Positions 2,855 through 15,407 of a DNA stretch of 40,030 bases are shown here, one piece after another. Below the pieces are notes generated by a model. It did no database searches and was not told the origin of the DNA. It saw only the letters and a list, made by a program, of their open reading frames with translations. Source of the stretch: an uncultured Chlorobiaceae bacterium (lineage in GTDB: Bacteria > Bacteroidota > Chlorobiia > Chlorobiales > Chlorobiaceae); contig CAIQGA010000040.1 of assembly GCA_903871235.1 (NCBI GenBank), positions 1 to 40,030 of the forward strand, in the 5' to 3' direction. Made by a program: the position numbers and the translations under genes. Position 1 is the first letter of the stretch. Every line of letters begins with the position of its first letter.

Positions 2855-3553
2855 ATGAATACTATGCTATCAGCATCAAGAGTTATCAGCCTTGTTCCGG
2901 CCTTGTTTCTTTTAACTTGTTCAGTGGCGGGATATGCTGCTGATGTTTCGTCAGTCACCGCCCTCAAAGCGTTAGATTCATCTACTGTCGGTGCGCCATC
3001 AATCCCGGCTGGATTTGTCAAGAGAGTTATTAAGAAAGGTGAGACACTTGCAAAGATATGTAACACGGATTCTACATCACGAATTCTTTTTATGAAAGTG
3101 AATCGGCTCGATGAACGGCACTTTCCCACAGGAAAAGAGGTGCTTGTGCCTGTTGATGTTGGCAAGGCGATGCTTTATTCGCCTGTACCAGCAACGATAG
3201 CCGACAGCAGGGGAGGACGTGAGATCAAAATTTTTCTTGATGCACAATATTTTGGAGCTTACGAGGGCGGAAAACTTCTTTTCTGGGGTCCGGTCTCCTC
3301 TGGCAAAAAACAGAAGCCTACACCTCCCGGAAAGTTTTTTGTGAATTACAAAGAGCGTTTCAGGCGCTCATTGAAGTATGAGAATGCCCCTATGCCGTTT
3401 TCAATAAATTTTAATAAAGGGTATTTCATGCATCAGCAGTCGCTTCCCGGTCGTCCTGCCTCACATGGTTGTGTCAGGCTTTTGCTGGTGGATGCCGAAC
3501 GTCTTTTTTTCTGGTTGCAGCGTAGTGACCCTGTCACGCTTGTCATGCACTGA
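2855..3553 (+). CDS. L,D-transpeptidase (YkuD family) with LysM-like segment
   Basis: A probable periplasmic cell-wall enzyme that forms or exchanges 3-3 peptide crosslinks, or attaches a protein to peptidoglycan. The 232 residues begin with a signal peptide (cleavage likely after A-G-Y-A, about residue 28). Residues 55-101 resemble a LysM peptidoglycan-binding domain (I-K-K-G-E-T-L, F-P-T-G-K-E-V-L-V-P). The YkuD domain follows from about 123 and ends in the catalytic motif H-Q-Q-S-L-P-G-R-P-A-S-H-G-C-V-R-L, with catalytic Cys206 and His204. A GGAAG sequence lies just upstream of the ATG at 2855. It appears to be a single gene; the attenuator-controlled leuA follows. Confidence 0.88.
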   Translation: MNTMLSASRVISLVPALFLLTCSVAGYAADVSSVTALKALDSSTVGAPSIPAGFVKRVIKKGETLAKICNTDSTSRILFMKVNRLDERHFPTGKEVLVPVDVGKAMLYSPVPATIADSRGGREIKIFLDAQYFGAYEGGKLLFWGPVSSGKKQKPTPPGKFFVNYKERFRRSLKYENAPMPFSINFNKGYFMHQQSLPGRPASHGCVRLLLVDAERLFFWLQRSDPVTLVMH

Positions 3554-3625: not shown

Positions 3626-3653
3626 TTGTACGCATCGCTAATTTTTTTATTTT
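3626..3653 (+). promoter_or_regulatory. Predicted promoter of the leuA leader
   Basis: TTGTAC (3626-3631) and TATTTT (3648-3653) have a 16-base spacer, placing a start near 3660. That is a short distance before the leader ORF, as expected for an attenuated operon. It is a consensus match only, and neighbouring AT-rich sequence offers other -10 candidates. Confidence 0.4.
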
Positions 3654-3696
3654 CAGTAAAAGCTGTTAAATGATTTTTTTACTCTCTGTGCTGACC

Positions 3697-3783
3697 ATGC
3701 GTACAACGAATCACAAGAACCTCCTGATCTCGCTGGCCCTGCTGCTCCTTGGCGTGGTGGCTTTGGGGGGAGGTGCTCTTTAG
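3697..3783 (+). CDS. Leucine-rich leader peptide of leuA
   Basis: A 28-codon ORF with nine leucine codons. CTC CTG occurs at 3721-3726 and a run of four (CTG CTG CTC CTT) at 3739-3750, with Ile and two Val codons nearby. It ends at TAG 3781-3783, 31 bases before a strong terminator and 100 bases before leuA. An in-frame ATG at 3670 would extend it to 37 residues with three more leucines; no good ribosome-binding site favours either start. Leader peptides rich in the end-product amino acid control leu operons in other bacteria through ribosome stalling. A small membrane peptide is the alternative reading, because the stretch is hydrophobic, but the context argues for a leader. Confidence 0.7.
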   Translation: MRTTNHKNLLISLALLLLGVVALGGGAL

Positions 3784-3826
3784 TTCGTTTTTCAGCAAGC
3801 GAGAAAACACTGTTAAAGCCGCCACC
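3756..3826 (+). promoter_or_regulatory. Antiterminator pairing of the leuA attenuator
   Basis: GGTGGCTTT at 3756-3764, inside the leader ORF just after the Leu codon run, is identical to the 3' arm of the downstream terminator (3838-3846). Both can pair with the same segment, AAAGCCGCCACC at 3815-3826. A ribosome stalled at the earlier Leu codons would leave 3756-3764 free to take that arm and prevent termination. A ribosome that reads through would cover it and let the terminator form. The competing sequences are seen directly; the mechanism is inferred from known leu attenuators. Confidence 0.65.
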
Positions 3827-3849
3827 CTCCTGGGTCTGGTGGCTTTTTT
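3815..3849 (+). terminator. Attenuator terminator upstream of leuA
   Basis: GCCACC (3821-3826) pairs with GGTGGC (3838-3843), and flanking AAAGCC/GGCTTT pairing is possible. The loop is CTCCTGGGTCT and a run of six T residues follows. It lies between the leader peptide and leuA, so it must act as a conditional terminator rather than a gene end. Confidence 0.75.
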
Positions 3850-3882
3850 CGTTTAAAGGATACAAAAAGGAAGATGTGTGCA

Positions 3883-5565
3883 ATGAAAAAAATGAAGTAT
3901 CAAAAATACGCAACGTATCCTTCGGTTGCTATTTCCGAAAGGAGCTGGCCCGACAAGAGTATCACGAAAGCGCCGCTCTGGTGCAGTGTTGATCTTCGTG
4001 ACGGTAATCAGGCGCTTCCGGTACCGATGAGCGTTGAGGAGAAGGTCTCCATGTTCCAGCTTCTTGTTTCCATTGGATTCAAGGAGATTGAGGTTGGTTT
4101 TCCATCAGCTTCGGCGACCGAGTTTGCCTTTGTGCGCAGGCTGGTTGAGGAGCGTCTTATTCCTGATGATGTTACTATCCAGGTGCTGACCCAGGCGCGT
4201 GAGCACCTGATTCGCAAGACTTTCGATGCAATAAGCGGAGCGAAACATGCCATAGTGCATCTCTATAATTCGACATCGACTTTGCAGCGAAATGTGGTTT
4301 TTCGTAAAAACAAGGAGGAGATCAAGGCTCTTGCTGTCGCGGGGACGGCGCTTGTTCGTCGTCTGAAGGATGAGTGTGGCAATGCCGGGATCCGTTACGA
4401 GTACAGTCCTGAAAGTTTTACCGGCACGGAACTTGATTATGCGCTGGATGTCTGTCATGCGGTGATGGATGCCTGGGGAGCATCGAAGGATGAAAAAATC
4501 ATTTTGAATCTGCCCTCAACAGTTGAAATGTCGCAGCCAAACATTTATGCTGACCGCATTGAGTGGTTCTGCCGCAACATCAAGGCGCGGGATGCGGTCT
4601 TGATCAGTGTTCATGCTCATAATGACCGTGGTACTGCCGTGGCTACCGCTGAATTGGCGGTGATGGCCGGTGCCGATCGAGTTGAGGGAGCCTTGTTTGG
4701 TAATGGTGAGCGGTGTGGTAACATGGATATTGTCACCATGGCGCTGAACCTCTTCAGTCAGGGTGTCGATCCTGAACTCGATTTTTCTGATCTCCCCCGC
4801 ATACGTGAGGTCTATCACCGTTGTACTCGCATGGATGTTCACCCCCGTCATCCCTATTCGGGAGAGCTGGTCTATACCGCTTTTTCCGGTTCGCACCAAG
4901 ATGCAATCAGCAAGGGGATGAAGGCGCAGCCGCTCTCGCCCGGTGGTTTGTGGGCGGTGCCCTATCTGCCGATTGACCCTCAGGATGTTGGCTGCAACTA
5001 TGAGGCTATTGTCCGTATCAATAGTCAGTCCGGCAAGGGTGGTGTGGCCTGGGTGCTTGAAAAGGAGTATGGTCTCCAGATCCCGAAATGGATGCAGCCT
5101 GATTTTGCTGAAGCGGTACAGGCTGTGGCTGACACGACGGGTGTTGAGTTGTCGGTTGAGCAGATTCATGAGTTGTTTCATGCGGAGTATGTAAAACTTC
5201 GAGAGCCACTTTCCCTCAAAAAGTGCCAGATCAGTTGGGCTGATGAGGATCTTGAGCGCCTTGATGAAGAGGCAACAACCATAAGCTGTATCGTGCAGGG
5301 CAAGGAGAGGGAGTTCAGCTTTACGGCACAGGGGAATGGCCCTCTTGATGCTTTTGTCAAGGGATTTGTCAGGGAGAGCGGAGTGGATTTCAGTGTTGAT
5401 GATTATGCTGAGCACGCAATAGGCCACAGCGCAGGAGCCCTGGCCATAGCCTATATTAAAATTGGCTGCGCTGACGGACGGGTTTCCTACGGTGCCGGTA
5501 TTGATTCAAATATCAGCCTTGCCTCCATCAAGGCAACGGTCAGTGCGTTGAACAGGCTGCCTTGA
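3883..5565 (+). CDS. leuA: 2-isopropylmalate synthase (long, type 2 form)
   Basis: LeuA condenses 2-oxoisovalerate with acetyl-CoA, the first committed step of leucine synthesis, in the cytoplasm. The N-terminal R-S-W-P-D-K-S-I-T-K-A-P-L-W and D-L-R-D-G-N-Q-A-L blocks, the metal-binding H-A-H-N-D-R-G motif near residue 240, and a C-terminal LeuA-type regulatory domain (ending near Y-G-A-G-I-D-S-N-I) mark it as the longer type 2 LeuA also found in yeast and actinobacteria. I prefer ATG 3883, since AAGGAAG lies 9 bases upstream of it. ATG 3874 is in frame but overlaps that site. Expression is probably controlled by the leader/attenuator just upstream; feedback inhibition by leucine is expected from the C-terminal domain. 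Confidence 0.94.
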   Translation: MKKMKYQKYATYPSVAISERSWPDKSITKAPLWCSVDLRDGNQALPVPMSVEEKVSMFQLLVSIGFKEIEVGFPSASATEFAFVRRLVEERLIPDDVTIQVLTQAREHLIRKTFDAISGAKHAIVHLYNSTSTLQRNVVFRKNKEEIKALAVAGTALVRRLKDECGNAGIRYEYSPESFTGTELDYALDVCHAVMDAWGASKDEKIILNLPSTVEMSQPNIYADRIEWFCRNIKARDAVLISVHAHNDRGTAVATAELAVMAGADRVEGALFGNGERCGNMDIVTMALNLFSQGVDPELDFSDLPRIREVYHRCTRMDVHPRHPYSGELVYTAFSGSHQDAISKGMKAQPLSPGGLWAVPYLPIDPQDVGCNYEAIVRINSQSGKGGVAWVLEKEYGLQIPKWMQPDFAEAVQAVADTTGVELSVEQIHELFHAEYVKLREPLSLKKCQISWADEDLERLDEEATTISCIVQGKEREFSFTAQGNGPLDAFVKGFVRESGVDFSVDDYAEHAIGHSAGALAIAYIKIGCADGRVSYGAGIDSNISLASIKATVSALNRLP

Positions 5566-13178: not shown

Positions 13179-13895
13179 TTATTTTGATTTGTCGACCATA
13201 TAGGTGACGATGCTCGATATCTCTGCACCGGTAAGCGCTGCGTTTCCGCCTTTTGCCGGCATCATACCAACCTTGCCCTTGAATCCATCGGTGGCATGGC
13301 TGAGAAGCAGAGCGTTTCCTTGAGCGATACGTGGCGCCCATGCAGCCTTGTCTCCGGGTTTCGGAGCGCCCATCATGCCTGATTCGTGACATGCGGCACA
13401 ACTCGCGTCATAGGCTGCCTTGCCGTCAGCCACTGCCGGAGCCGCTGTCGGGGTTGCAGCAGCGGCACCTTTTGACTTGTCGGCCATGAAGGCAACAGCA
13501 TTGGTTACCTCTTCATCGGTCAAACTGGCGTTGCCACCTTTTGCAGGCATCATGCCAGCCTTGCCGGTGAAGCCCGCGATCGAGTTTTTCGTCATTACGT
13601 CTGCACCTTGAGCAATACGTGGCGCCCATGCGGCTACGTCTCCAGGTTTCGGCGCACCCATCATACCCGCATCGTGACATGCGGCACAGTTTGCGTCATA
13701 GACCACTTTACCTGCGGCCAGTTTCGGGTCTGAGGGAATCTCAGCCGTTGCTGCCGGGGCAGCGCTTGCAGCAACCGCTGCGGCATCTCCCTTTGCATCA
13801 GGAAATTTCAGTGAGGCTGGTGGCTTTTCGAGGCCGCATGCACTGAGAAATAAGAGAGTCACGGTCAAAAAAGGGAGGAAAGGCTTCATGGTCAT
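13179..13895 (-). CDS. Dihaem c-type cytochrome lipoprotein with two c-555-like domains
   Basis: A 238-residue membrane-tethered electron carrier. The N-terminal lipobox L-S-A-C puts lipidated Cys at residue 20. An Ala/Pro-rich linker (33-58) precedes domain 1 (about 59-142), with haem site C-A-A-C-H at 70-74 and Met region M-M-P-A-K-G-G at 115-121. A second Ala/Pro linker follows, then domain 2 (158-238) with C-A-A-C-H at 166-170 and the same Met motif at 211-217. The domains are close copies. ATG 13895 and 13889 are both possible. It probably carries electrons at the periplasmic membrane face, perhaps to the soluble c-555-like proteins encoded downstream; that pairing is inferred. Confidence 0.88.
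   Translation of the reverse strand: MTMKPFLPFLTVTLLFLSACGLEKPPASLKFPDAKGDAAAVAASAAPAATAEIPSDPKLAAGKVVYDANCAACHDAGMMGAPKPGDVAAWAPRIAQGADVMTKNSIAGFTGKAGMMPAKGGNASLTDEEVTNAVAFMADKSKGAAAATPTAAPAVADGKAAYDASCAACHESGMMGAPKPGDKAAWAPRIAQGNALLLSHATDGFKGKVGMMPAKGGNAALTGAEISSIVTYMVDKSK
13182..13712 (-). repeat. Internal gene duplication in the dihaem cytochrome
   Basis: Segment 13470-13712 (domain 1) and segment 13182-13424 (domain 2) are 243-base direct repeats in the same frame. They remain clearly similar at DNA level around the haem motif, for example the shared run CGTGGCGCCCATGC. They are separated by a 45-base Ala/Pro linker. Confidence 0.8.
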
Positions 13896-13961: not shown

Positions 13962-15407
13962 TTATTTGGCGTATGGCAAAATGGTTTTTTCTCTCTTTCC
14001 TGTTTCAAGCTGACAGCGCAGGTCATGGCGTGAGAGGCTGTAGAGATGGGTGTAGAAGAGATTGAAGAGCATCACCGCACTTTTCGCTCTTGGGGCTGCA
14101 AAGCCTCTCGTGATGGCATTTTTTATGCTGAACACCTGCCGGGTAAGGGTGGAGTAGCTTTCGATAAAGGCGTCGAGTGGAATATTTTTTGGCTTATAGA
14201 GCATCTCCTGGCCAAAGGAGTAACGGTATGCGGTGACGTCGAGGGGATCAAAGAGCAGCCGTCCCTCCTGGCGAAGCCGTTCAAAGACCTGTGTTCCTGG
14301 AGTAGGTCGCAGAATATTGATGCCGGGGACGTCAAGCCTGGTTTCATTGATGAAGTCAAGGATTGCCGCCGGAGTATCGAGCGTATCGCCGTCGAGGCCA
14401 TAAATAAAGCTTCCGTAGAGGCTTATTCCTGCCGCCCTGATAGTTTTAATTGCTCCGGCAAGTTCACCGGCCCTGTTCTGGTTCTTTTTATGGGCGCTCC
14501 TACTTTTTGTTTCAATGCTCTCTATGCCAACCAACAGCGCCTGACATCCTGAGCGGGCAAAGGTTTCAAGCAACTCATGTTGCTGGCCGAGGGTTGTTGT
14601 GGCCTGTCCGAACCAGCGGATCTTCAGGGGAGTGAGCTGACGGAAGAGTTCCCGGGCATAGAGTGGATCGGCATTGATGGAGTCATCGACAAAAAAGAAG
14701 ATTCTTCGGTCATGCTGCTGAAACCGCTCAACCTCACTGACCACGTCCTCAATTGCCCTTCTGCGCAGGCGGCGGCCGTTCAGCAGATGCACATTGCAGA
14801 AGTCGCAACTGTACTGGCATCCTCGTCCAGTCTGAATCAGGTTTGTTGTAAAGTAGCGGTTTTTTATCAGTGATTGTTTACTGACAGGCCTTGAAATTCC
14901 AAGATCGGGAAAGCTGCTGGATTGATAGAGCGGCTTGAGAGTGCCTGCGGCAAGGTCAGCAAGCAGTTCCTTCCAGAGGTCGTCAGCCTCTCCAAGCACA
15001 AGAATATCTGCGTGGGGTCTGCATGAATCGGCGAAGAGTGTGACATGTGCCCCTCCGAGTACAACAGCAATCCCGGCAGCACGGAGTTTGTCGGCAAGGG
15101 CAAAGGCCTGTTTTGCCATTCCGGTCTGAACGCTGATGCCAACCAGATCCCAGTGTTGATGAAAGGGAAATTCTTCGAAGCGCATATCGCATATCGACTG
15201 CTCGACTCCCGGTACTTCAAGAGAACTGAGGATCATGAGCGAAAGCGGTGGAATGGCAAACTGGCTACGCTTGATCATGGTTCTGATCGAACGGTTGAAC
15301 CAGTTGAACAGAGGGTTCAGCTCATGCTCGCCGTAGAGTGAACGGGCTCCGTCAACACCGCTTTCGGATGGCAGAAAAACCAGCACTACTTTTTTTTGTG
15401 AACGCAT
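13962..15407 (-). CDS. B12-binding-domain radical SAM protein
   Basis: A 481-residue class B radical SAM enzyme of the group that includes BchE and the bacteriochlorophyll methylases BchQ/BchR. An N-terminal cobalamin-binding-like Rossmann domain (about 50-155, with V-G-I-S-V-Q-T and L-G-G-A-H-V-T) lacks the D-x-H-x-x-G base-off motif, as is common in this group. The radical SAM domain starts at about 185, with its 4Fe-4S ligands Cys197, Cys201 and Cys204 in G-R-G-C-Q-Y-S-C-D-F-C-N. The GGE-like region and barrel follow to about 390, then a helical C-terminus. batC abuts upstream by 6 bases. Substrate is unknown; a pigment, lipid or quinone methylation role is possible but unproven. Confidence 0.82.
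   Translation of the reverse strand: MRSQKKVVLVFLPSESGVDGARSLYGEHELNPLFNWFNRSIRTMIKRSQFAIPPLSLMILSSLEVPGVEQSICDMRFEEFPFHQHWDLVGISVQTGMAKQAFALADKLRAAGIAVVLGGAHVTLFADSCRPHADILVLGEADDLWKELLADLAAGTLKPLYQSSSFPDLGISRPVSKQSLIKNRYFTTNLIQTGRGCQYSCDFCNVHLLNGRRLRRRAIEDVVSEVERFQQHDRRIFFFVDDSINADPLYARELFRQLTPLKIRWFGQATTTLGQQHELLETFARSGCQALLVGIESIETKSRSAHKKNQNRAGELAGAIKTIRAAGISLYGSFIYGLDGDTLDTPAAILDFINETRLDVPGINILRPTPGTQVFERLRQEGRLLFDPLDVTAYRYSFGQEMLYKPKNIPLDAFIESYSTLTRQVFSIKNAITRGFAAPRAKSAVMLFNLFYTHLYSLSRHDLRCQLETGKREKTILPYAK

Follow-up and report, generated by a model that had tools for sequence, protein, structure and literature searches.

The window analysed here, the whole stretch of 40,030 nucleotides (locus label G000:C40), is part of a Chlorobiaceae genome and carries a leuA gene on the plus strand, preceded by a leader region with the following features, all on the same strand:

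2855-3553, plus strand: L,D-transpeptidase-like gene, upstream of the leader
3626-3653, plus strand: probable promoter of the leader RNA, recognized by eye, TTGTAC (3626-3631), 16 bases, TATTTT (3648-3653)
3697-3783, plus strand: leader peptide ORF of 28 codons, nine of them Leu, MRTTNHKNLLISLALLLLGVVALGGGAL followed by the stop; frame open and Leu kept through synonymous changes in relatives
3715-3733, plus strand: region 1, putative protector strand with the first Leu codons and ACCUCC (cognate duplex with region 2 against permuted duplexes)
3733-3750, plus strand: second Leu cluster, putative control codons, with the most conserved Leu at 3739-3741 and 3745-3747 (alignment of relatives)
3756-3764, plus strand: exact copy of the terminator 3' arm, an alternative antiterminator strand confined to this and the closest species (fold of the window)
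3765-3782, plus strand: region 2, predicted conserved antiterminator strand, G-rich, overlapping the ORF end and the stop codon (folding and permutation)
3813-3831, plus strand: region 3, shared strand, comprising the terminator 5' arm and loop (pairing counts)
3815-3852, plus strand: intrinsic terminator, arms 3815-3827 and 3832-3846, then a U-run (folding and relatives)
3874-5565, plus strand: leuA, 2-isopropylmalate synthase of the TIGR00970 (leuA_yeast) type, 563 aa (NCBIfam TIGR00970)

The leuA product scores 738.8 bits against TIGR00970 (NCBIfam cut-off, 697.4), and this gene, the copy with the putative attenuator, stands alone. The same genome encodes a second 2-isopropylmalate synthase, of the bacterial TIGR00973 type, within a leuB-leuA-leuC-leuD-cimA cluster (L084, G000:C188, 279-6453); thus, two types of the enzyme coexist in this genome. 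The promoter block is kept in relatives as a TTGCA-like element, 16-18 bases and TATATT/TATNTT; an automatic promoter/terminator scan of the window missed both this promoter and the terminator.

Among the 86 Chlorobiaceae genomes examined, nearly all have a leuA ortholog (73-99% identical), and 82 leuA upstream regions were compared, 81 of which were readable, as one ends at a contig edge. The Leu-rich leader ORF is kept in 77 of the 81 loci (76 aligned, and L032 read separately). The leader is lost and the terminator kept in L018, L039 and L045, and neither is present in L026. In L018 and L039, the leader ORF has been lost and the leuA terminator comes directly after a tRNA-Asn gene; these are natural cases of loss, in which the switch has disappeared and the terminator is kept. 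A covariance model of regions 2-4 produced exactly one strong match in 79 of the 86 family genomes, in every case immediately before leuA, and none in 12 further genomes of the Chlorobiales; no further strong copies of the element were found across 98 genomes of the class. Weak matches to this model in G007, G087, G067 and G033 turned out to be ordinary terminators on inspection. Because the ORF, the terminator and their mutually exclusive folding recur in 77 of 81 relatives, the combination is beyond chance. A first-pass annotation of this DNA had proposed a leucine attenuator upstream of leuA and named a lack of conservation in relatives as one ground for refuting it; the comparison with relatives did not refute it.

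The short ORF noted there, with nine Leu in 28 codons, was found as described, at 3697-3783, and ends with UAG (3781-3783). Over the aligned part corresponding to 3697-3760, its frame contains no stop codon in the relatives, compared to 113 and 33 stops in the other two frames. In the Chlorobiaceae alignment, Leu is kept at 3739-3741 in 65 of 69 ungapped rows and at 3745-3747 in 71 of 75, the latter being encoded by four synonymous codons (CTA 23, CTC 21, CTT 19, CTG 8). The rare codon CUA accounts for 19.1% of the 393 leader Leu codons, compared to 0.3% of the 1,665 Leu codons in the leuA sequence covered, and in the leaders of relatives it is found mostly in the second Leu cluster, i.e., at the presumed control positions. 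This enrichment is the pattern that selection for slow, leucine-sensitive decoding would give. It should be noted that the CUA signature rests on the relatives, as the window's own leader contains no CUA. There is no clear Shine-Dalgarno sequence at or upstream of 3697; leuA itself has one in most relatives. Outside the Leu codons, the peptide sequence shows free drift, and relatives differ in its length and in where it stops. The comparative evidence for translation of the leader ORF is strong, and the alignment points to a hallmark of attenuators, a leader ORF rich in codons for the amino acid of the pathway, with a conserved frame, conserved Leu and CUA enrichment.

The terminator hairpin (3815-3846) has a predicted energy of -19.8 kcal/mol (fold of 3813-3850) and, as the first-pass annotation had it, starts 31 bases after the leader stop codon; a U-run follows the hairpin. 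Across 76 sequences, 94.6% of the cells of this helix are paired. An intrinsic terminator, a further hallmark, lies between the leader ORF and leuA. Between the leader stop and the terminator, a GUUC...GAAC hairpin (3784-3812) is kept in many relatives; this hairpin would cap the antiterminator.

When the relatives were folded from just past the stall position through the terminator 5' arm, region 3 paired with 3765-3782 (region 2). In this register, 84.5% of the cells of regions 2 and 3 form standard pairs, compared to 41-60% with one strand slid, and in 46 of 76 rows one pair of the fixed register does not form. Run on the plain alignment, RNAalifold recovered the terminator but very little of the antiterminator, owing to a one-base shift of one helix between lineages; therefore, it was replaced by fixed-register counts and a duplex permutation test, in which strands were swapped between species and duplex strengths compared (2000 permutations, using either all sequences or 41 clusters at 85% identity). 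With all sequences, none of the 2000 permuted sets was better than the cognate one for the 2:3, 3:4 or 1:2 pairing; with the 41 clusters, this was the case for 10, 0 and 3 permutations, respectively, and these tests only partly remove shared ancestry. The tests lose power at 15 clusters or fewer (98/2000 for 2:3 at 15; not significant at 8 or 4). The number of double-change pairs in the antiterminator, counted in the relatives, was no higher than in shuffles.

For the window itself, when folding begins at 3759 to mimic release by a stalled ribosome, the predicted minimum is the conserved 2:3 fold (-23.3 kcal/mol), whereas with a ribosome modelled at the stop codon only -4.8 is left to compete with the terminator. 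These folds suggest an antiterminator that excludes the terminator and would be freed by a stalled ribosome. The protector pairing, of 3715-3733 with 3764-3783, is weaker than the 2:3 and 3:4 pairings; judging from the sequences, it is this pairing that completes the usual 1:2, 2:3, 3:4 scheme of attenuators.

The first-pass annotation placed the antiterminator strand elsewhere, in an exact 9-base copy of the terminator 3' arm inside the leader ORF. The copy is real: GGTGGCTTT is present exactly at 3756-3764 and 3838-3846, with another copy in the window at 13819 and 0.67 expected by chance. Both copies are able to pair with 3815-3823, and in the window, where 3756-3764 is the strongest unconstrained partner (duplex -19.8), the unconstrained antiterminator fold uses 3754-3766. 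The 3756-3764 pairing is not conserved in relatives. As a conserved antiterminator strand, the copy was rejected: tested over 3752-3765, its pairing with region 3 in relatives was no better than in shuffles or permutations (permuted pairings were better in 367/2000, and in 1386/2000 on clusters). The conserved strand lies about 12 bases downstream. Furthermore, a ribosome stalled on the most conserved Leu (3745) would cover the first bases of 3756-3764, and the conserved fold then becomes the minimum. Attenuation as proposed here, with the copy in place of region 2 as the antiterminator strand, is therefore unlikely.

Taken with the analogy to known attenuators, sequence comparison and modelling make it very probable that the leuA leader is a ribosome-mediated transcription attenuator of the classical logic, which reads charged leucine tRNA. 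Leucine control in a green sulfur bacterium, the central proposal of the first-pass annotation, gains support from leader conservation, the coding signature and the three pairings, and it fits the pathway, since leuA makes the first committed leucine intermediate. We infer ribosome stalling, transcription-translation coupling and the leucine response from the established logic of trp and leu attenuators together with the features computed here, i.e., the conserved ORF with its coding signature, the terminator, and the comparative support for the three pairings; the positions of the ribosome edges are likewise inferred, being taken from general knowledge. RNA polymerase would start near 3660 and transcribe the leader, with a ribosome behind it on the 28-codon ORF. 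Under a shortage of Leu-tRNA, this ribosome would stall on Leu codons, chiefly those at 3739-3747; with its front edge near 3758, region 2 (3765-3782) would stay free to pair with region 3 (3813-3831), the terminator would be blocked, and leuA would be transcribed. Conversely, when leucine is plentiful, the ribosome would reach the UAG at 3781-3783 and cover region 2, so that region 3 could pair with region 4 and transcription would terminate near 3850. If the leader is not translated, region 1 (3715-3733) would pair with region 2, and the terminator would form again. Attenuation of this kind implies close coupling of transcription and translation at leuA.

Two other explanations dispense with Leu-tRNA sensing, and we consider each of them very improbable. 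According to the first, the terminator merely ends the L,D-transpeptidase-like gene, and the short ORF is incidental. This gene lies on the same strand, its end being 260 bases upstream of the hairpin, and in L018, L039 and L045 the terminator does exist without a leader, in two cases right behind the tRNA-Asn gene. However, only 2 of 75 loci have a homolog of this gene before leuA, the other 73 having a different gene there, whereas the leader and terminator stay with leuA; the unit thus belongs to, and travels with, leuA, and both coding selection and rare-codon enrichment argue against an incidental ORF. According to the second, the ORF product is itself functional, either as a small hydrophobic peptide or as an arrest peptide that senses something besides Leu-tRNA. 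Being hydrophobic and rich in Leu, the peptide resembles a membrane segment, and its C-terminal Gly-Gly-Ala-Phe is fairly conserved; these residues, however, coincide with the conserved RNA strand, and the free drift of the non-Leu residues, the changes in length and stop position, and the gathering of rare CUA codons at the control positions all speak against this explanation. Control of the terminator by a T-box or a metabolite riboswitch has a negligible chance: leuA genes of the same type in Clostridia do carry T-boxes (L134, L154, L196), but in the window leader every Rfam family stayed below its threshold (the strongest of the weak matches being Phe_leader, 17.9 bits versus 55), the T-box covariance model RF00230 gave no match there while being positive in the Clostridia leuA loci, and the alignment shows no conserved unpaired T-box-like core.

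Within the class, no family other than Chlorobiaceae was found to have leuA of the TIGR00970 type. Elsewhere, its closest relatives have a scattered distribution; a quick tree places as its sister a Spirochaetaceae gene (support 93) that is likewise preceded by a Leu leader and a terminator. A strict scan detected a Leu leader with a terminator at 9 of 76 outside loci (L122, L123, L132, L133, L135, L136, L174, L176 and L185), and none in 1,520 shuffles or in 76 antisense sequences; the loci belong to at least five other phyla, namely Spirochaetota, Deferribacterota (as labelled), Thermodesulfobacteriota, Actinomycetota and Verrucomicrobiota. By a crude definition, L122 and L123 show a clear competing pairing and L133 and L136 a weaker one; none was evident in the other loci. 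This recurrence at the same leuA type in other phyla raises the question of co-transfer or repeated invention. It is conceivable, although we lean against it, that leuA of the TIGR00970 type is passed between phyla together with its Leu attenuator, as a single cassette; if so, the RNA logic would persist while the sequence is wholly replaced. A separate observation concerns the ilv-leu operon of a relative (L099, minus strand, about 14281-14760), in which a short ORF, MTAPSSHTGHASLPAEAVLPLAGLPLSFDVTPVSGVTLKGSVR, precedes ilvD and might be a candidate branched-chain leader.

Classical leader-peptide attenuation has long been deemed a speciality of Proteobacteria and Actinobacteria, and the comparative evidence from 77 genomes now places it in green sulfur bacteria. 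The leader also offers a clean single-gene reporter of leucine supply in green sulfur phototrophs. The abstract of Vitreschak et al. 2004 reportedly mentions candidate attenuators in some Bacteroidetes/Chlorobi. Our literature search found attenuators elsewhere and no description of this element in green sulfur bacteria; the surveys Vitreschak 2004 and Lopatovskaya 2010 lay outside the search. According to Naville and Gautheret 2010, leader peptide systems were unknown beyond Proteobacteria and Actinobacteria before their own case in Firmicutes (PMC2965389). The Chlorobiaceae leader thus belongs to a familiar class of switch, one that seems to have been little described in this lineage.

The leu operons of enterobacteria have a Leu-rich leader peptide with consecutive control codons and the rare CUA, terminator, antiterminator and protector pairings, and leuA as the target. 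The Chlorobiaceae leader resembles this leuL system in the Leu-rich leader, the three pairings, the leuA target and, in the relatives, the rare CUA, but differs in the TIGR00970 type of its leuA, in control of a single gene rather than leuABCD, and in an antiterminator strand that overlaps the stop codon; the Rfam covariance model of the enterobacterial Leu_leader (RF00512) gave no match to the window leader even at E 5. The actinobacterial LEU element also places a leader ORF with Leu codons before leuA, the same general gene. It is described as a pseudoknot with a base stem formed between the Leu codons and the Shine-Dalgarno box, and mutations of these codons had effects unlike those of classical attenuation (PMC1262725); compared by description, the Chlorobiaceae leader differs in having an intrinsic terminator and a switch acting on it. 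The T-boxes of Clostridia share with the Chlorobiaceae system the leuA type and the sensing of charged tRNA via a terminator, whereas they bind tRNA directly and have no leader peptide. Leaders in Spirochaetaceae (L122), a Deferribacteres MAG (L123) and Desulfobulbales (L132, L135) are not alignable with the Chlorobiaceae leader, but they likewise combine a Leu-rich short ORF and a terminator with leuA of the same type, and L122 and L123 share an ORF end that is able to pair with the terminator 5' arm.
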